From Candidatus Poribacteria bacterium (GTDB taxonomy: Bacteria; Abyssobacteria; SURF-5): 10,604 nt of DNA. The translations under genes were made by a program, and so were the position numbers. The stretch lies in the NCBI GenBank assembly GCA_016215705.1, contig JACRIR010000178.1:1-10604 (forward strand), in the 5' to 3' direction. Positions within the stretch are counted from its first letter, which is position 1. The number at the start of each line of letters is the position of its first letter. A model generated the notes under the pieces. The model was not told where the DNA came from and ran no database searches. It saw only the letters and a program-made list of their open reading frames with translations. Positions 1,516-10,604 of the stretch are shown here, piece by piece.

Positions 1516-3768
1516 CTACATTCCCTTGAACGGATTCATTCCAACTTGCTCAATCGTCTCCATGAACTCGCCGATGATGGTCGGAATCTTCTCGTATTCC
1601 GATACCTGAATCTGATGCAGTTGGACTCGTTCATTCTCGAGCGCCATCTGCTTCAGCTTCTCCCTTACATTGTCGCCGCGAGTGTTCATTAGCTCGCTGC
1701 CGCGAATAAAATGGCATTGATAGTCATCGCCGTATTTGCACCCGAGCAGCAACACGCCGTCGAATCCCTTCGCGAGGGATTCATTGATCCAAATCACGTT
1801 GACCGACCCGAGGCATCTCACCGGTATTACTCGAATGAACGGACTGTATTGCAGCCGTTTCAACCCCACGGTATCAAAAGCGGGATAAGCGTCGTTCTCG
1901 CACGCCAGGACAAGCACCCTCGGCTTCTCTTCGTCTTCGTCAGGAACTTCGACCGCTTTGATCATGGAGGCGATCATGTCGACCGAGTAGTTCTTGAAGT
2001 TGATGATGCGCTCGGGACAAGCCCCCAGACAAATACCGCATCTCCGGCATCGCGTCGGATTCGGCAGCGGGGTTCCCTTCACGTCTTCGTTGAGAGTTCC
2101 GAATGGGCATTCCTCGGTGCAGCGTTTGCACTGAGTACAACGCTGCAGGAAGAACTCCGGATAGGAACGGTCGCCCGCGCGCGGCAGAACCGTCTCGCCC
2201 CGCGAGAGCATCTCGACGCACTGAATGGCCTTGAACGCCGCCCCCGTCGCATCCTCAACGCTTCCCAAACCATCCATCGGAGCCCTCACGGCCCCGGCAG
2301 TGTAGATACCCGTCCGGCGGGTTTCATAAGGGAAGCAGATGAAGTGCGAATCGGGGAAACCGTATTGCAGCGTGGGAAGGTCAGGCCCCTGCCGATAGTC
2401 GAGGTTGAGAATCTCGGTGCCCTCATGTTGCCCAATGTCCTCTATTCTCTTCTTCATGACATCGACTTGCGGTCCGCCTTCACCGCTGGCAAGAAACGCT
2501 TTCGCATCCTTGACGGTGCGTATTTTCTCGCCGTCCGCCGAGCATGGAACCATTCCAACGGCCAAAACCACAAGATCGGCGTCAACACTGATATTCTCGC
2601 CGAGAAGCGTCTTCTCGACATCCACCGTCAGCGACTTGTCCGCGTTCTCGGCGACGCGAACGACATCTCCCTTTGTGAGGAACACACCGGGGTCCTGCTG
2701 CATCTTCTTGTAGAAATATTCGTAGTGCCCCGGCGCTCGCAGGTTGTCATATATGATGTATGCCTTGCCTTCGCTTGACTGCTCGCGGACGTAGGCGGCC
2801 TGTTTGAGCGAATTAAGGCAACAGATCGACGAGCAGTATGAAAGATGCGCTTTGTCGCGAGACCCCGCGCACTGAACAAAAACAACTCGCTTGGCGTCCT
2901 TGCCGTCGGATTTGCGCGCGATCCGCCCATTTTTGGCCATCTCTTCAAGCTCAACATTTGTTATTACATTGGCGAACTTGCGAAAACCGAGATGATCCAG
3001 ATTCTTGGGTTCAAAAGGTTTCCAGCCGGTGGCTTGTACTATGGCGCCGACACGAAACGAAGCGGCGCCCGGCCCCTTGAGTGTGACATCAAACAGCCCC
3101 GGACCACCCTTGATCGTTTCGATCTCGGTCGAGGTGAAAATCTTGACCTTGGGATTGCTCTGGACCTGCTTGATCTTCTCCTCGATACCCGTATCCTCGA
3201 GCGCCTCGTAAGGCGGCGTCCTCGGGATCGACTTCTTCAGTTTCGCCATCCAACCGCCAAGTTGGGCGCTTTTTTCGATGAGAACAGTGTTGTAGCCAGT
3301 CGCAGCAGCTTCGAGCGCAGCGGTTATGCCGGCAATGCCGCCGCCCACGACCATGATTGTCTTATCGATATCCTTACTCTCAGGGAAAGCCTCGACAGGC
3401 TGCATCTTCTGGACTTTGACTATGCCCATACGGAGATAGTCTTCCGCCAGCATCTGCGTATCTTCGTTGTTTGCGGGCTGGCACCAGACAACCTGCTCTC
3501 TGAGATTCACAAACTCGACGATAACATTTTCTGGAAACGAACCTGTCGCATAGAAACGCGGTGACGGCCCGGCAATCACGGCTCTCTCGAGACCTTGCTC
3601 CGTGATGTCCTTCTTGATGAAATCCAGGTCGTCGGCTTCACACGACGAAACTGTCTTGCAGACATCGACCTTATATTCTTTGGTGGCTACGCTGGAGAGC
3701 TGTTCCACGTTCAACGCCTCTCCAATGCCATAGCCGGTGCAAATGTAGACTCCTATCTTGCTTGCCAC
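1516..3768 (-). CDS. qmoB: QmoB, HdrA/MvhD-like flavin and iron-sulfur subunit of Qmo
   Basis: This 750-residue HdrA-like flavoprotein carries electrons between QmoC and AprAB in the cytoplasm. In order it has an N-terminal HdrA-type region, a dinucleotide-binding GGGIAG at 142-147 with the downstream acidic end VLIEK, a cysteine block QCAGSRD...YCSSICC (C300, C312, C316, C317), and an FAD-domain end near AGAVRAPMD (491-499). Two ferredoxin motifs follow, C544-x2-C547-x2-C550-x3-C554 and C574-x2-C577-x2-C580-x3-C584. The C-terminal MvhD-like domain has C623, C652, C677 and C685. The length fits QmoB, which is longer than QmoA because of the ferredoxin and MvhD parts. The start is GTG; the AGGAGG site that serves it is formed by the last two arginine codons of qmoA, only 7 non-coding bases away. 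Translational coupling to qmoA is therefore likely. Confidence 0.95.
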   Translation of the reverse strand: MASKIGVYICTGYGIGEALNVEQLSSVATKEYKVDVCKTVSSCEADDLDFIKKDITEQGLERAVIAGPSPRFYATGSFPENVIVEFVNLREQVVWCQPANNEDTQMLAEDYLRMGIVKVQKMQPVEAFPESKDIDKTIMVVGGGIAGITAALEAAATGYNTVLIEKSAQLGGWMAKLKKSIPRTPPYEALEDTGIEEKIKQVQSNPKVKIFTSTEIETIKGGPGLFDVTLKGPGAASFRVGAIVQATGWKPFEPKNLDHLGFRKFANVITNVELEEMAKNGRIARKSDGKDAKRVVFVQCAGSRDKAHLSYCSSICCLNSLKQAAYVREQSSEGKAYIIYDNLRAPGHYEYFYKKMQQDPGVFLTKGDVVRVAENADKSLTVDVEKTLLGENISVDADLVVLAVGMVPCSADGEKIRTVKDAKAFLASGEGGPQVDVMKKRIEDIGQHEGTEILNLDYRQGPDLPTLQYGFPDSHFICFPYETRRTGIYTAGAVRAPMDGLGSVEDATGAAFKAIQCVEMLSRGETVLPRAGDRSYPEFFLQRCTQCKRCTEECPFGTLNEDVKGTPLPNPTRCRRCGICLGACPERIINFKNYSVDMIASMIKAVEVPDEDEEKPRVLVLACENDAYPAFDTVGLKRLQYSPFIRVIPVRCLGSVNVIWINESLAKGFDGVLLLGCKYGDDYQCHFIRGSELMNTRGDNVREKLKQMALENERVQLHQIQVSEYEKIPTIIGEFMETIEQVGMNPFKGM

Positions 3769-3775
3769 GGAACGA

Positions 3776-5032
3776 TTACCTCCTGACTATCTGGATAGCT
3801 TTCATTACAGCCGCTGTGGCGTCTTTTACCGATCTGGAAACATCCAGGGGCCTTTTGACACACCCTGCGCCGAAGATTCCGCCTCCATTCGGACTGTCGA
3901 CCAGGAATCCATCGCTGTCGCAAGTGAGGTTGACTCCCGCGATAGGCGAATCCATGATCGACGGCACGATGCCCGTCGCGAGCACCACCATATCGAACTG
4001 CTCGCTCAGTTTCTTGCCGGGAATGACTTCCTCAGCCTCGACAATGGGATTCCTTGTCACAGGATCTTCGGTAATCTTCGCGACTTTTCCTTTGATGAAT
4101 GAGATGTTCGGGTCTTCCAGCAGATCGTAGTAGAACTTCTCGAATCGACCGATAGTCCGAATATCTATATAGAAAATGGTGACCTTCGAGTCAGCCACTT
4201 TCTCCCTGACGTAACGGGCCTGTTTCAACGAGCCCATGCAGCAAACAGCCGAACAGTACGGCAGATGATTCTCATCCCTCGAGCCCGCGCACTGGACAAA
4301 TGCAACCTTGGCCGGCTCTTTCCCGTCAGACGGGCGGAGCAGTTTTCCTGCAGTCGGACCACTGAGCGCGGCAAGTCTCTCCATCATAACGTTGGTAATC
4401 ACGTTCACGCATCTGCCAAAGCCCAGATTGTCGAGGCGCACGGCGTCATATGGGCGCCAGCCGGTTGCTATGATCACGGCGCCGACTTTGACCTCGATTC
4501 GCTCGTCTTTCATGTCCAGGTCAATCGCGCCTCCGGGCGAAGCATTCTTGAGCCGCTGTGACTCCTCGGATGTCAACGCATCTTTTTTCAAAACGTAAAG
4601 CGGCGGATACGCTGCATCATGTGGCAAGAAGAGAGCTTTCGTCTTATCCATCCCGTAATTGAACGTATTTGGAACTTCAGTCGCGACCGCATCGAGATGG
4701 GCCTGCGTGACAGGCTGCTTGCCGGTCACGTAGCGGGGATTCACACGAATCGTGACTGTGTAATCGCCCGCCTGGCCGGAGATTTTCTCAACCTCGGACA
4801 GAGTGTACACCTTGATCCGGGGATTCTGGCGAATTCTGCGGACATTTATCTCCATTCCGCACGTGGGCGGGCAGAGTTTCGGAAAGTACTGGTTCATTCG
4901 GATCACGCGCCCGCCCAGGTAGGGCTCCTTCTCAACCAGCACAACTTCGCAGCCCAGTTCGGCCGCGTCAGCGGCGGCGGAGATACCGCTTATGCCACCG
5001 CCTATAACGAGAATCTTGCCGTTGGCGCTCAT
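3776..5032 (-). CDS. qmoA: QmoA, HdrA-like flavoprotein subunit of Qmo
   Basis: This 418-residue protein resembles the flavin-binding core of heterodisulfide reductase HdrA. It has GGGISG at residues 11-16 for FAD binding, VEKEPYLGGR around 33-42, a CPPTCGME motif (C54, C58) and the HdrA-type cysteine block QCAGSRD...YCSAVCC (C248, C260, C264, C265). It ends with an FAD-domain close near FGAGCVKRPLD. It lacks the ferredoxin and MvhD domains seen in QmoB, which separates the two paralogues. A longer reading frame continues upstream to 5146, but that part overlaps the preceding gene. The ATG at 5032 gives MSANGKILVIGGG, places the nucleotide-binding strand at the very N-terminus as expected, and has GGAG five bases upstream. 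The gap to the upstream YkgJ-type gene is 11 bases. Confidence 0.95.
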   Translation of the reverse strand: MSANGKILVIGGGISGISAAADAAELGCEVVLVEKEPYLGGRVIRMNQYFPKLCPPTCGMEINVRRIRQNPRIKVYTLSEVEKISGQAGDYTVTIRVNPRYVTGKQPVTQAHLDAVATEVPNTFNYGMDKTKALFLPHDAAYPPLYVLKKDALTSEESQRLKNASPGGAIDLDMKDERIEVKVGAVIIATGWRPYDAVRLDNLGFGRCVNVITNVMMERLAALSGPTAGKLLRPSDGKEPAKVAFVQCAGSRDENHLPYCSAVCCMGSLKQARYVREKVADSKVTIFYIDIRTIGRFEKFYYDLLEDPNISFIKGKVAKITEDPVTRNPIVEAEEVIPGKKLSEQFDMVVLATGIVPSIMDSPIAGVNLTCDSDGFLVDSPNGGGIFGAGCVKRPLDVSRSVKDATAAVMKAIQIVRR

Positions 5033-5043
5033 AGAGTCTCCAT

Positions 5044-5871
5044 TCAAAGTGCCTGTTCCTTTTTCTTCAACTCTTGAATCTTGGTCTGGAGCAACTGCTC
5101 GCGAACCTTCACAGTAGGCTCGTTGAAAAGCGCACGCTTGAGCCACTGAACCGCGAACTTCATCAACTCGAGATCGTCCGTCCGGATTCTCTCGACCGTC
5201 TCCGGATCAACCTCGAAATACTGGAGAAACCTGCTTTCAAAAACAAAACGCCGGAACTTGTCCACGTTGTAACACCCCATGTAAAACATCTCCATCTTTG
5301 CCGGACCAAGGTCCCCGCCCTTTTGGAGATAGTCATGCAGCGTTATCTCTTTGAAAGATTCCCCCATCCGGTTGTATTCAGCAATGCCCTGGTCTTCCAG
5401 CCATTTCCTGACCGTCCATTCCTTCTGCTCGCCGAAACCCCGGCAATGAGCCTCTTCCATAACGAAATAGAACTTCTCCTCTTTCGCGGGATTCTCTTCC
5501 TTTGGAGATGCAAGGCCGAGCGGATACATACGGCAGGCCCACGGCCGATCCTCATAGACGGTACACCCTTTGGGGCTCACAAAAGGACATCGCTTATTCT
5601 CATCACCGCCCATTTTCAAGATTACGAGCGGAAGACGCTGCTTCTTGTTGAATGGGACGATGGTGTATTTCTCAAGAAATTCGTCAGAGGAAATCCCGAG
5701 ACGCTTCTTCATCCGAAGGATATCATAAGGAGTGAGGAAGATAGTGATATCGGCGCAGCACTGAGTGAAGCAGCTTAAACCCTCATTGCAGGAAAATCTG
5801 AACTTGTCGTTCTCAGTGAATCGGGGCGCATCTTTCAGGACCGCCTCTTTGAAACTATCCAAATCGCTCAT
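5044..5871 (-). CDS. YkgJ-family cysteine-cluster (putative Zn/Fe-binding) protein
   Basis: This 275-residue soluble protein belongs to the YkgJ/UPF0153 family, whose exact biochemical role is unknown. The family signature is clear: C28-x5-C34-x3-C38-C39 near the N-terminus, then C95, C103 and C113 in the pattern RCPFV...GCTVYEDRPWACRMYPL, with a further C143. These cysteines are expected to bind zinc or an iron-sulfur cluster. The C-terminal half is charged and ends in a lysine- and glutamate-rich, probably helical tail; no signal peptide or membrane segment is seen. It sits 39 bases after the zinc-finger gene and 11 bases before qmoA, so it is probably cotranscribed with qmoABC. The ribosome binding site before its ATG is weak. 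A role in metal-cluster assembly or maturation of Apr or Qmo is an inference from position only. Confidence 0.85.
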   Translation of the reverse strand: MSDLDSFKEAVLKDAPRFTENDKFRFSCNEGLSCFTQCCADITIFLTPYDILRMKKRLGISSDEFLEKYTIVPFNKKQRLPLVILKMGGDENKRCPFVSPKGCTVYEDRPWACRMYPLGLASPKEENPAKEEKFYFVMEEAHCRGFGEQKEWTVRKWLEDQGIAEYNRMGESFKEITLHDYLQKGGDLGPAKMEMFYMGCYNVDKFRRFVFESRFLQYFEVDPETVERIRTDDLELMKFAVQWLKRALFNEPTVKVREQLLQTKIQELKKKEQAL

Positions 5872-5910: not shown

Positions 5911-6195
5911 TCACTTAATAATTTGGTCTTTCAGCGCATCAGCAGACCAAACCGGCAAGGGACGGGAACAGCCCGTGGCCGGATCAACGCAATGTCTGTA
6001 CGATGCGTTCGCCTGATACTTCTCACGCATCCATTGCCAGCCGGTGACGAAATACACGCATTCGTCATTGAAGCACACATAGTGAAATTCCGCATCCCAC
6101 GACGACGCGGCAGGAATGGTCCACTTGTCCATCTCTTTACCGCAATGCGGACAGACAAAAATCGCCATGTCTTCAACGGTTGCTTTTTCTTCCAT
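5911..6195 (-). CDS. Small Ogr/Delta-like zinc-finger protein
   Basis: This 94-residue protein contains C15-x2-C18-x22-C41-x4-C46. That is the same spacing as the zinc finger of phage P2 Ogr and satellite P4 Delta, which activate late-gene transcription. As in Ogr, an aromatic/hydrophobic segment (VYFVTGWQWM) follows the last cysteine. Two more cysteines, C69 and C76, lie in the C-terminal part. No helix-turn-helix or membrane segment is visible. It could be a transcription factor acting through RNA polymerase or, equally, a structural zinc protein with a role in APS reduction. No phage genes surround it. I start it at the ATG at 6195; a TTG three codons upstream (6204) keeps the frame but fits the purine-rich AGAAAGAAG site less well. 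It is 107 bases after aprA, behind a strong hairpin, and 39 bases before the YkgJ-type gene. Confidence 0.8.
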   Translation of the reverse strand: MEEKATVEDMAIFVCPHCGKEMDKWTIPAASSWDAEFHYVCFNDECVYFVTGWQWMREKYQANASYRHCVDPATGCSRPLPVWSADALKDQIIK

Positions 6196-6255
6196 TTGAA
6201 TCAACTTCTTTCTGACTACTCCCGCAATCGCACTGCCTTGAGATCACGGAAAATG

Positions 6256-6288
6256 TTCCCCCGGGCGCCCAAAGAGCGCCCGGAGGAA
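6256..6288 (-). terminator. Strong GC-rich hairpin after aprA (terminator or mRNA-end stabiliser)
   Basis: The arms 6276-6288 and 6256-6268 pair over 13 base pairs with a single G-U wobble, around a 7-base loop. It begins 14 bases after the aprA stop codon. On the minus strand it is followed by CATTTTCC, so the T-tract is short (four T). It could terminate part of the transcripts, or protect the aprBA 3' end so that apr is made in excess of qmo. No T-tract follows it on the plus strand. Confidence 0.65.
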
Positions 6289-6302: not shown

Positions 6303-8177
6303 TTACTTTACGATGTTGATAACGGGCTTCTTCTCCATCTTCCAATCGCCCGACTTGGGATTCCACGTCGCATTGACGAAGACTCTCCAATTTGCCTCGT
6401 CCATCTTCGGGAAATCGGCTCTCATGTAGTAGCCCGGCCAACGAGTCTCTTGCCGGAAGAGAATAGTCCGGATGTGGACTTCAGCTTGCCACAGCCTCTG
6501 CACGTTCTCCCAGCACCGCATGAGTTCATGCAGGTCCTCTGCCGCGAGCTTCTCGGCGTCCTCTCTCAACATCCCGAGCAGCTCGAGTGCTTTTTCGAGC
6601 GCCATCTTGTTGGTCGTGAACTGTGAGGTCACGCCGGCGCCGTATTCGTCCATAGCCTTCTGCAGCCGGAACATGAACATTTTCGGCTTCATGAAGTTCG
6701 GATTGATGTCCGGATCGCTCGAAGCGCTCTTGAACTCCTGGAACAGATCAAGCGGCTTCAGGATTTTCGCCTTCAGCGCGTTGACAGCAGCCATGTCGAC
6801 CTTGGGTTGAGTGTTGTTCTCGACGATATAGCGGATGGCCTCTTTCGCCGCAATTCTGCCTTCCGTCAAAGAGCCGGAGGAGAACTTGTGGCTGGAAGCG
6901 CCCGACGCATCGCCTGCGCAGAACATACCCTTTACGGTTGACATATTAGCATAGCCCCAGAAGTACTCCGGAGGAGCAAGGTCTTTCGGACCGCTCACCC
7001 ATGCGCCGGAAGCGCCGGAGTGCGAACCGATGAAGTACGGCTCTGAAGCCGCGATTTCGGAAGGTTTCACTTCGGGCTCGACGTTCGTGCCTGCCCACAG
7101 GATGGCCTGCGAAATGGTCATGTCGAGGAAGTCTTCCCATGCTTCGCTTTCGAGTTCCTTTAGCTTCTTCTTCCGCTCTTTCGGATCCTGCACGGCCTCG
7201 GACAGCTTCTGGATGGCCTCTTCTGTGCGCATGTAAATGGGGCCTTTGCCTGCCATGACATCCAGCATGCCGAGATAGTTTCTCAGGTTCGCCGGAACCG
7301 GTTTCACGTTGCCATACGGAAGCCAATTCTGCAGCTCGGGCTTGCGCTCGACCATATAGTCGCCGCCCATCGCGTTGGTTGCCCTGGATTTGAACAGAAG
7401 GAACCACGCGCCGACTGGACCGTAACCGTCCTTAAAGCGGACGGGAATAAAGCGGACTTCCTGACAGGTCATCTCTGCGCCCGCGCGGATTGTGAAGTAT
7501 GCGCTCGAGCCGGAGTTCCACGGAGGATACCACGCGCGGCCAAGGCCTTCACCTACGGACCTCGGCTTGAACACGTGAACTGCGCCTCCCATGGATACCA
7601 ACACTGCCTTCGCCTTGAAGACGTAGAACTTGTTTTCACGAACACTGAAGCCGACGGCGCCCGCGATGCGGTCTCCGTCCATCAGAGGCTCGACTATGAA
7701 AACGCGTTCGATGATATTGCTGATTCCTAGAGCGTTCTTCGCAGCTTCCGCCACGATGACTTTGTACGATTCGCCGTTGATCATGAGCTGCCAGCGGCCT
7801 TCATGAACGTACTTGCCCGCAGCGTCTTTCCAAATGGGGAGGCCCCATTTTTCGAACAGATGCACGGTGGAATCAACGTGCCGGGCGATGCTCGCCACGA
7901 GGTCCTCGCGGGTGATGCCCATGAGGTCGTTGCGCACGTATTTCACGTAGTCTTCAAGCGTGTTTTCGCCGTCCTTCAGACCGACGTATTGGTTGATGGC
8001 CGAAAGTCCCATCGCGACTGCGCCGCTGCGATCCATCGCAGCCTTGTCGACGAGGGTCACTTTCACGTTGTGTTTCTTCGCCCAATGGGCCGCCTCAACG
8101 GCAGCGCCACAGGCCGCCATACCGCCACCCAGTATCAGTAGATCGGTAGTTACCTCTACGGTTTCGAAATTAGCCAC
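6303..8177 (-). CDS. aprA: Adenylylsulfate (APS) reductase alpha subunit
   Basis: AprA is the FAD-containing catalytic subunit of dissimilatory APS reductase, which reduces APS to sulfite and AMP in the cytoplasm. The 624-residue product belongs to the fumarate reductase/succinate dehydrogenase flavoprotein superfamily. It has GGGMAACGAA at 17-26 for FAD, VDKAAMDRSGAVAMG at 43-57, the very typical RFKDGYGPVGAWFLLFK block at 247-263, GSHSGASGAW at 384-393 and the flavin-domain end FCAGDASGASSH at 419-430. N62, R247 and H386 are my candidates for active-site residues described in the Archaeoglobus enzyme; this was not aligned. It is slightly shorter than many bacterial AprA proteins (about 640-660). 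The start is GTG, preceded by an excellent AAAGGAGGTG eight bases upstream; an 18-base gap follows the aprB stop, so aprBA are translated as a pair. Confidence 0.97.
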   Translation of the reverse strand: MANFETVEVTTDLLILGGGMAACGAAVEAAHWAKKHNVKVTLVDKAAMDRSGAVAMGLSAINQYVGLKDGENTLEDYVKYVRNDLMGITREDLVASIARHVDSTVHLFEKWGLPIWKDAAGKYVHEGRWQLMINGESYKVIVAEAAKNALGISNIIERVFIVEPLMDGDRIAGAVGFSVRENKFYVFKAKAVLVSMGGAVHVFKPRSVGEGLGRAWYPPWNSGSSAYFTIRAGAEMTCQEVRFIPVRFKDGYGPVGAWFLLFKSRATNAMGGDYMVERKPELQNWLPYGNVKPVPANLRNYLGMLDVMAGKGPIYMRTEEAIQKLSEAVQDPKERKKKLKELESEAWEDFLDMTISQAILWAGTNVEPEVKPSEIAASEPYFIGSHSGASGAWVSGPKDLAPPEYFWGYANMSTVKGMFCAGDASGASSHKFSSGSLTEGRIAAKEAIRYIVENNTQPKVDMAAVNALKAKILKPLDLFQEFKSASSDPDINPNFMKPKMFMFRLQKAMDEYGAGVTSQFTTNKMALEKALELLGMLREDAEKLAAEDLHELMRCWENVQRLWQAEVHIRTILFRQETRWPGYYMRADFPKMDEANWRVFVNATWNPKSGDWKMEKKPVINIVK

Positions 8178-8195: not shown

Positions 8196-8639
8196 TTATT
8201 TCTTGAACCCTATGACACCCGGCAAGCCGAGCGACTCGGGTTCGGAAAACAAAACCGGGCTGCTCAGATCTTCTGTAGCCGTCTTCCATCCGCCATCCGG
8301 CACAGCGGAGCCTTCCGGCGTAGTGCGGATCGGGAACTTGAACCGCTTGATCTGGCCGTTGCGGAACTTAATGGTCCACATGATGTCTTCGGTGCTGCGC
8401 ATCGGACTGACACTCGCGCCCATGGGAACGAAATCCGCGTAGCCTCTAACCTCGACAGCCTGCGTCGGGCAGATTTTTACGCAGTTGTAACATTCCCAGC
8501 ACATTTCCGGTTCCTGATTGTAAGCCTTCATCAGCTCTTTGTTCAGGACCATCAGATCGTTCGGACAAATGTACTGGCACGCAGTCTTATCCAATGCTTT
8601 GCAGCCGTCGCACTTCGCTGGATTCACAAAGCTTGGCAT
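8196..8639 (-). CDS. aprB: Adenylylsulfate (APS) reductase beta subunit
   Basis: AprB is the ferredoxin-like partner that passes electrons to the FAD of AprA. The 147-residue product has two [4Fe-4S] motifs: C10-x2-C13-x7-C21-x3-C25, whose widened spacing is typical of AprB, and C47-x2-C50-x2-C53-x3-C57. W48, next to C47, corresponds in position to a tryptophan described between cluster and flavin in the Archaeoglobus enzyme. The C-terminal half (KFPIRTTPEGS...VLFSEPESLGLPG) is the tail that wraps around AprA. At 147 residues it is of the short type, compared with about 166 in Desulfovibrio, from memory. The ATG has AAGGAG upstream at normal spacing. aprA follows 18 bases downstream. Confidence 0.97.
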   Translation of the reverse strand: MPSFVNPAKCDGCKALDKTACQYICPNDLMVLNKELMKAYNQEPEMCWECYNCVKICPTQAVEVRGYADFVPMGASVSPMRSTEDIMWTIKFRNGQIKRFKFPIRTTPEGSAVPDGGWKTATEDLSSPVLFSEPESLGLPGVIGFKK

Positions 8640-8808: not shown

Positions 8809-10041
8809 CTACTTCTTGTCCTTCTTTGCGGCTTCGCCCGTCGCCGCTCCGTGCAATTTGATCTCGACTTTCTCCGTCAGACCGGCGTAGTACTGCTTGA
8901 GGATTGTGAGCACTTCGGGCCGGCTGAAGTCGGCAGGCACTTCGCCGCCTTCGGACAACATCTTGCGGAGCATCGTACCGCTCAGCAACAGGCGATCTTC
9001 TTTGCCGTGCGGGCAAGTTCTCATCGAGGCCATGCCGCGGCACTTGCTGCAATAGAACGTCCAGTCGATATTGAGTGGTTTCAGTTCCAGGGCATCCTTC
9101 GGAATTTCGTTGAATATCTTCTGAGCGTCGAATGGGCCGTAGTAGTCGCCCACACCGGCGTGGTCGCGTCCGACGAGAAGGTGGCTGCAACCAAAGTTCT
9201 GGCGGAACACAGCGTGCAACAGCGCCTCGCGCGGACCGCCGTAACGCATTTCCATCGGATAGCCGCCCTGAATTACGGTGTTCTTGACGAAGTAGTGTTC
9301 CACAAGCACGTCGATGCACTTTACGCGAACGTCGGCAGGGATATCTCCAGCCTTCAGCTTACCGACAAGCTGATGGATGAAAAGACCGTCGCAAATCTCA
9401 ACGGCTATCTTGGCAAGATACTCATGCGAGCGGTGCATCGGATTGCGAAGTTGCAGCGCCGCCACGGTTTTCCAACCTTTTTCCTCGAAGAGCTTCCGGC
9501 TCTCGGCCGGCCTCATATAGACGCCCTTGAACTCTTCGGGATATGTGCTTTCACTGAAGACTTTTACCGGCCCGGCAAGGTTGACATCGTACTGCGACAT
9601 AACCTTGGCGACGCCAGGGTGCTCTTTGTCATTGGTGCGGAACACTTGCTTGCACTCGTATTCCTTGTCGATCGTGTACTTCTCGGTCACCTTCATGCTG
9701 CCCATCAATTCGTTCGTTTCCTCATCGATGAGCGCGATTTCGCTGCCTTCCTTGATGGAATCCGCAACTTCTTTCTTCGCCGAAAGCGTAATGGGAATGG
9801 GCCAGAACAGGCCATTCGCCATTTTGTATTCCGCGCAGACGCCCTTCCAGTCAGCCTTCGTCATGAAGCCTTCAAGCGGGGTAAAGGCGCCTATTGCCAT
9901 CATGATAAGGTCGGATGTTTCCCGGCTCGTCATGATAACCTTTGGCAGCTTCTCGGCCTTCTTCTTCTCTTCCTTGAGTTTATCCCCGCTCAAGAGAAGA
10001 GGTTTCAAAACCGGGGATCCATGTGGTTTCACAAGTGCCAT
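8809..10041 (-). CDS. sat: Sulfate adenylyltransferase (ATP sulfurylase)
   Basis: Sat activates sulfate with ATP to APS and pyrophosphate, the first step of sulfate reduction in the cytoplasm. The 410-residue product has the nucleotide-binding motif [11 protein letters not shown] at 197-207 (with H203 and H206) and the second catalytic motif [13 protein letters not shown] at 291-303. It also has a probable zinc site C331-x2-C334-x8-C343-x-H345, and [10 protein letters not shown] at 353-362. There is no APS-kinase domain, as expected for the dissimilatory enzyme. A longer frame opens at a GTG at 10062, but that GTG lies upstream of and reads through the AAAGGAGG site. The ATG at 10041 (MALVKPHG) is therefore the better start. 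The C-terminus ends in a lysine-rich tail. It stands alone between two sizeable spacers, 405 bases after dsrD and 169 bases before aprB. Confidence 0.97.
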
Positions 10042-10446
10042 TATCGACTGCCCTCCTTTCACCGTTCCGGTGAATCTGGGTGGTCAACCGACTCAACAGC
10101 CGCCGACGCCCTTTGCGTTTTTGGGGTGGTCTGTTGCACGGCATCGGCCTGAGTTCGCGCTGACCGTTACGGATGGAATCACCTCAGCGTAGTTCCGTTT
10201 CTTCTTCAGATGTCGTTCGGGCTTACCTCCTTTGTGAGCCTTCCTGACTCACCAAAAGCTAACAAGCCAACATCTCGGACACATTCATTAATCTTTTGCA
10301 TCACCCCGTGTGAAACTGCTTCGCAACTCGTGGTTCACGCACGGCGTGCCGTACTCTACAGTCAATTGCCGGACAGATTCGGAACCATCTCCATGTCGTT
10401 TGTGGCCGGAGCCTCGGTTCAGGAGAAGGTTCGATGGGGCCTTCTT
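10042..10446 (-). other. 405-base non-coding region between dsrD and sat
   Basis: No convincing gene was found on either strand. On the minus strand, right after the dsrD stop, AGAAGG/CCTTCT arms (10424-10445) could form a six-base-pair stem, but no T-tract follows, so termination is doubtful. A short perfect dyad ACGGC-gt-GCCGT lies at 10341-10352. An AAAGGAGGT without a matching start codon lies at 10225-10233, just after a small GTGAG/CTCAC hairpin (10234-10252). A hairpin abuts the sat ribosome binding site. I saw no good sigma70 -35/-10 pair, although the length suggests that a sat promoter or leader is here. Confidence 0.55.
10058..10074 (-). promoter_or_regulatory. Leader hairpin abutting the sat ribosome binding site
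   Basis: On the minus strand TTCACCG (10068-10074) and CGGTGAA (10058-10064) form a perfect seven-base-pair stem with a three-base loop. The 3' arm ends inside the AAA of the sat AAAGGAGGG ribosome binding site (about 10051-10059). Folding would place a compact stem directly against the site and could tune initiation or protect the 5' end of a processed message. Confidence 0.45.
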
Positions 10447-10604
10447 TCATTCGCCTTCCGGGGTTTCGCCGGAGCCGGGTTGATAGCCTTTAAGCGTGAT
10501 GTAGGTCGTGCTTCCGCTCGACCAGTAGTCCAGCACGTTCTCCTCGATCAACTCCTGCGTCAGTTTCTTTATCAGTTTCCGGTCTATTTCCGGAAGCCCC
10601 TTCG
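10447..10604 (-). CDS. dsrD: DsrD, C-terminal part (truncated by the window edge)
   Basis: The last 51 residues of a reading frame entering from the right edge end at a TGA at 10447. They contain ENVLDYWSSGSTTYITLKG, which matches the signature end of the DsrD winged-helix domain (LEYWSSGSTT-x-LKG in Desulfovibrio, recalled from memory). A short glycine- and glutamate-rich tail follows. DsrD is a small protein of about 75-80 residues that has been shown to activate dissimilatory sulfite reductase DsrAB; it does not bind siroheme itself. It commonly lies just after dsrAB, so dsrAB may lie upstream beyond the window. The N-terminal roughly 25-30 residues and the start are not visible. It is followed by sat after a 405-base gap. 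Confidence 0.85.
   Translation of the reverse strand, partial: KGLPEIDRKLIKKLTQELIEENVLDYWSSGSTTYITLKGYQPGSGETPEGE

Follow-up and report, generated by a model that had tools for sequence, protein, structure and literature searches.

A small zinc-ribbon protein, most likely an accessory of the dissimilatory APS-reductase system in one of its major lineages

Dissimilatory APS reduction holds a key place in sulfur cycling worldwide, and in the usual account Sat, AprAB, and Qmo suffice for it. The QmoD of Desulfovibrio is a small uncharacterized protein encoded with qmoABC; the protein that we describe here, a 94-aa zinc-ribbon protein whose gene we call znf, resembles it in each of these respects. 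What follows suggests that AprAB has uncharacterized helper proteins. Thiel et al. (2019; PMC6338057) described the arrangement "sat-aprBA-hyp-hyp-qmoC" in Candidatus Thermonerobacter and related Ignavibacteria-type metagenome-assembled genomes (MAGs), in which a pair of conserved hypothetical genes separates aprA from qmoC; the two genes were left unidentified, were not compared, and were not followed beyond those MAGs. Judged by position, as in our loci L013, L014, L021, and L027, these genes are very likely znf and its neighbor, a ykgJ-type gene. Apart from the "hyp-hyp" remark, a literature search covering few subscription journals returned no paper naming the two genes or their distribution beside apr. 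PMC10504309 cites Zane et al. 2010.

By domain, the closest described proteins are the PF04606 Ogr/Delta activators, P2 Ogr and the Delta protein of satellite P4, with which znf has in common a four-cysteine finger of spacing C-x2-C-x22-C-x4-C and a Pfam score over the cut-off. It differs from them in reaching about half their PF04606 score, in being acidic, in carrying an extra conserved C-terminal half, and in standing outside any phage context. The ykgJ-type partner recalls FliB, a flagellin lysine methyltransferase with a CX4CX3CC motif, eight conserved cysteines, and a [4Fe-4S] cluster (PMC8598068).

We analyzed a stretch of 10,604 nt (the window) from a Candidatus Poribacteria bacterium assigned to Abyssobacteria. 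The genes lie on its minus strand in the order dsrD fragment (10447–10602; PF08679, E = 1.3e-11), cut by the contig end upstream of sat; sat, for ATP sulfurylase (8809–10062; PF01747, E = 8e-90); aprB and aprA, for the APS reductase beta (8196–8639; PF12139, E = 5e-37) and alpha (6303–8177; TIGR02061, E = 9e-275) subunits; znf (5911–6195); the gene for a 275-aa YkgJ-like CxxCxxCC protein (5044–5871; PF03692, 43.6 bits versus a cut-off of 23); qmoA, for an HdrA-like flavoprotein (3776–5032, the start at 5032 being inferred from the MSANGKILVIGGG start); qmoB (1516–3768), which has PF02662 FlpD and Fer4 domains and is syntenic in relatives; and qmoC (324–1499; NF038018, E = 6e-136). Gaps of 107 bp between aprA and znf, 39 bp between znf and ykgJ, and about 11 bp between ykgJ and qmoA separate the central genes, spacings that are consistent with one operon. 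A first-pass annotation of this DNA had set znf between aprA and qmoA; aprA is indeed its neighbor on one side, but the CxxCxxCC gene (5871–5044) separates it from qmoA.

A strong hairpin, either attenuator- or terminator-like or a 3′ stabilizer, lies between the aprA stop and znf on the same strand (6256–6288). We rejected it as a znf-specific cis element because it occurs equally commonly after aprA with and without znf: among loci L011–L090 and L111–L130, 60 of the 63 with znf have it 3′ of aprA, as do nearly all of those without znf, in which a T-run is often present. It likely marks the end of the aprBA transcript or stabilizes that transcript. At the other end of the locus, the contigs of two related genomes (L007 and L008) also start inside dsrD. 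A search for dsrA (TIGR02064) found it in G041 and did not find it in G000, G001, or G002, which are 91–98% complete; as dsrD sits at the contig edge, this may reflect an assembly or binning gap, and since the window contig ends inside dsrD we give the missing dsrA no evidential weight.

The znf open reading frame runs from an ATG at 6195 to a stop at 5911, with an alternative TTG start at 6204; its assignment draws on the translation, the Pfam match, an alignment, and an AlphaFold2 (AF2) model. The cysteine spacing that the first-pass annotation had read from the sequence is exact (Cys15-x2-Cys18-x22-Cys41-x4-Cys46). Residues 15–57 form the PF04606-like finger, followed by the conserved C-terminal half, and the match to PF04606 (E = 3e-10, 40.2 bits, gathering cut-off 26.3) recurs in 65 of 66 aligned relatives, so the finger is not a chance motif. 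The AF2 model is one compact domain (pLDDT 89.5, pTM 0.79) comprising the ribbon, a helix at 47–60, and strands at 65–70 and 77–82. A sequence search of the PDB found no relative of znf, which is weak evidence, and a fold search brought up zinc ribbons of RNA polymerases and topoisomerase I as weakly similar (Z of 3.4 or less). The protein presumably binds zinc and would act at low stoichiometry. Two additional cysteines that had drawn attention, C69 and C76, are present, but in only 2 of the 66 sequences (the window and SURF_17); they therefore fall outside the core, and we rejected this lineage-specific pair as part of the metal site.

Across the alignment, whose 66 members come from many phyla, the four finger cysteines are invariant, as are the FND after Cys41, Tyr48, Trp53, Tyr66, Arg67, and Pro72. 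The finger is equaled in strength of conservation by the C-terminal half, SYR-x4-DP-x-TG-x3-PLPVWS-x2-ALK-x2-I. In Desulfobacterota, the unit of about 80 aa also occurs within larger proteins: fused C-terminally to a class I SAM methyltransferase (L091–L093, L110), or as the N terminus of a protein of about 225 aa that ends in another zinc ribbon and has a HEAT-like middle, where the repeats were assigned by eye (L094–L104, L109). Reading frames of methyltransferase-fusion length occur in Acidobacteriota and in the Zixibacteria-type phylum of genome G063 as well.

These properties bear on the proposal, made in the first-pass annotation, that znf may be a domesticated regulator of the sulfate-reduction genes. 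As an Ogr/Delta-type regulator of the apr/qmo operon, it would contact RNA polymerase through its finger; the Ogr/Delta activators turn on transcription by way of the polymerase alpha subunit. The above-threshold PF04606 matches, a finger spacing identical to that of P2 Ogr, and the faint fold resemblance to polymerase and topoisomerase ribbons are what one would cite for it. The proposal fares poorly in direct comparison, however. Taken from genome records, P2 Ogr reaches 77 bits and P4 Delta 78 bits against PF04606 versus 40 for znf, and both are basic (pI 8.8 and 9.3) versus a pI of 5.0 for znf and a family median of 6.0. In the reciprocal search, our znf family profile, A2, gave the window protein 144 bits and recovered neither Ogr nor Delta at E ≤ 10, and a PHROGs search with znf matched no named Ogr family (best E = 5e-4). 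The strongly conserved C-terminal half also counts against a regulator, and, given the methyltransferase and HEAT-like fusions, a docking module fits better than a phage-type activator. The earlier remark that phage genes are lacking nearby holds, there being none on the 10.6-kb contig. A transcriptional role is less likely, and we consider the domesticated regulator improbable.

To place znf in its genomic setting, we scanned genome contigs, which yielded 176 relatives, and kept the best 80 of these for locus analysis. Among these 80, 73 loci carry apr or qmo genes, so the family is not scattered through contexts that lack a link to them; aprA, znf, and ykgJ are contiguous on one strand in 50, and ykgJ genes are convergent to znf in 20 more. 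The loci come from about ten phyla: Acidobacteriota, Zixibacteria, Bacteroidota/Ignavibacteriota-labeled MAGs, Kryptoniota, Planctomycetota, Omnitrophota, Armatimonadota, Electryoneota, Abyssobacteria, and Desulfobacterota. Two of the seven loci without apr or qmo (L035 and L069) lie beside dsr genes, and phage or satellite surroundings were not encountered for the 73 and these two. Where znf lies away from apr/qmo in L024, L032, and L056, a full-length aprA is present elsewhere in the genome; L064 has znf-ykgJ on an 11-kb contig with no apr or qmo on the locus, and no full-length aprA was found in the L019 genome. We considered a link to dsrAB instead of apr and do not favor it, because aprA is the constant neighbor of znf.

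Two further features of these loci deserve mention. In several loci of Desulfobacterota (L024, at 10271–11035, L019, L044, L051, L054, L061, L079, and L089), the gene after znf encodes a SEC-C motif protein of about 255 aa. Locus L042, labeled Ignavibacterium sp., belongs to the phylum group that includes G063, a Zixibacteria genome, and the L042 AprA pairs with one from Zixibacteria; the record is probably mislabeled.

Co-occurrence across genomes ties znf to aprA in three phyla. Among 297 Acidobacteriota genomes, znf is present in 18, aprA in 19, and both in 17 (Fisher p = 1.6e-24). For the Zixibacteria-type phylum of G063 (132 genomes), the corresponding numbers are 46, 48, and 44 (p = 8e-28); in all four aprA-only genomes the contig is cut just 3′ of aprA, and in both znf-only genomes znf starts within 1 kb of a contig end. 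In Desulfobacterota (247 genomes), stand-alone znf occurs in 29, aprA in 98, and both in 27 (p = 2e-10). The ykgJ-type protein, scored as present at E ≤ 1e-30, is found in 103 of these 247 genomes, including 96 of the 98 with aprA (96 with both, 9 discordant; p = 3.5e-57) and 29 of the 29 with znf. These counts indicate that the CxxCxxCC protein goes with AprA broadly in Desulfobacterota, and znf with a part of it. As 71 of the 98 aprA genomes lack znf, APS reduction as such does not require the protein. In znf-free Desulfobacterota, ykgJ-type genes often still adjoin apr, for instance as aprBA-ykgJ-ykgJ-qmoABC (L112 and L128); three other such genomes have a single ykgJ-type copy away from apr.

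A quickly searched tree of 55 AprA sequences, 19 of them znf-free, places the znf-linked AprA proteins on a single branch (SH-aLRT 92); the exceptions are three znf-free sequences, among them L119, whose contig ends at aprA. The znf labels require 4 changes on this tree versus 15.9 when shuffled. Desulfosarcina widdelii (G060) and G187 hold both AprA types, and in each znf adjoins the branch AprA only. Distances also show co-inheritance (Mantel r = 0.42 for znf and aprA, r = 0.53 for znf and ykgJ, p = 0.001). That znf follows one AprA lineage over about ten phyla, sits at just one of two apr loci within the same genome, and is stably paired with the CxxCxxCC protein speaks further against a regulator, although operon-encoded regulators too travel with their operons.

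Relative to 16 znf-free AprA sequences, the branch AprA proteins differ in that the Thr directly following SAIN is replaced by Gln (in a few by Glu) and ME-x-R by QE-x-R or QE-x-V; the window AprA has SAIN-Q at residue 63 and QE-x-R at 239. Aligned with A. fulgidus AprA, these branch-specific residues presumably flank Asn-A74 and Arg-A265. PMC2211403 lists both among the active-site residues.

Could znf simply ride along as a neutral passenger of a horizontally transferred operon? Movement of the operon between phyla is clear, but znf has 12 invariant residues and 17 that are nearly so when 66 sequences of diverse phyla are compared, is kept beside rearranged operons, and, where detached, is kept elsewhere in genomes that still have aprA. 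Strong purifying selection on znf thus disfavors this explanation, which we find very hard to credit. A different account would place znf within an AprAB-QmoABC supercomplex, as a small subunit that is structural or couples electron transfer. In the window, as in many relatives, it stands between aprBA and qmoABC, and in seven Desulfobacterota loci it comes directly after qmoC; these positions, like the distinctive residues beside the likely AprA active site, agree with such a subunit. Set against this, znf stays with aprA and ykgJ where qmoAB are elsewhere (L013, L014, L031, L052, and L062), its four-cysteine ribbon has no obvious redox center, and it is absent from the other AprA branch; we hold the subunit to be rather unlikely.

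The partner protein has a CX5CX3CC motif and eight invariant cysteines (28, 34, 38, 39, 95, 103, 113, and 143), and its AF2 model is confidently folded (pLDDT 94.4). No match was found in NCBIfam, and sequence and fold searches of the PDB gave no solved relative, an absence that is weak evidence. It resembles FliB in its PF03692 domain and its eight invariant cysteines, with CX5CX3CC where FliB has CX4CX3CC, and it is unlike FliB in lacking an NCBIfam match and in its context, which is APS reduction and not flagella. With neither an NCBIfam match nor a solved relative, the parallel with FliB is drawn from the shared Pfam domain and the cysteine pattern. By this analogy, the partner is a probable Fe-S protein, motif-related to a [4Fe-4S] enzyme, and the likeness may serve as a lead to its chemistry, not as proof.

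Taken in its setting, znf most likely belongs, as an accessory part, to a major lineage of the dissimilatory APS-reductase system. We think it probable that znf is an accessory factor and that, together with the YkgJ-type protein, it serves in maturing, modifying, or coupling AprAB/Qmo. The first-pass annotation had offered, as its other suggestion, a small metal protein serving AprAB/QmoABC, and the apr/qmo neighborhoods and aprA co-occurrence in three phyla bear this out as far as association goes, the function itself being inferred. In the mechanism we propose, znf, encoded like ykgJ in the sat-aprBA-znf-ykgJ-qmoABC cluster and 3′ of a hairpin with a probable attenuating or stabilizing role, would act after translation as an adaptor. 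It would dock on AprAB or on the AprAB-Qmo interface by means of the zinc ribbon together with the conserved C-terminal half, which is rich in Arg, Trp, and Pro; there, with the CxxCxxCC protein, it would lead to AprAB/Qmo being assembled, modified, or coupled. Physical contact with AprAB/Qmo and a role in maturation or modification are thus predictions of this proposal. More tentatively, the pair might form a dedicated, hitherto unrecognized post-translational system in which the adaptor brings a FliB-like [4Fe-4S] enzyme to AprAB/Qmo, where that enzyme would add a modification or cofactor, the CxxCxxCC protein being a near-universal AprA companion in Desulfobacterota and znf defining one AprA lineage; this is a possibility to which we give limited credence.

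A role in maturation or coupling would lend itself to direct test, and znf together with ykgJ could mark the AprA lineage in metagenomes. If our reading is true, the usual picture of APS reduction would lack two parts, uncharacterized metal-binding proteins that follow AprA from phylum to phylum.
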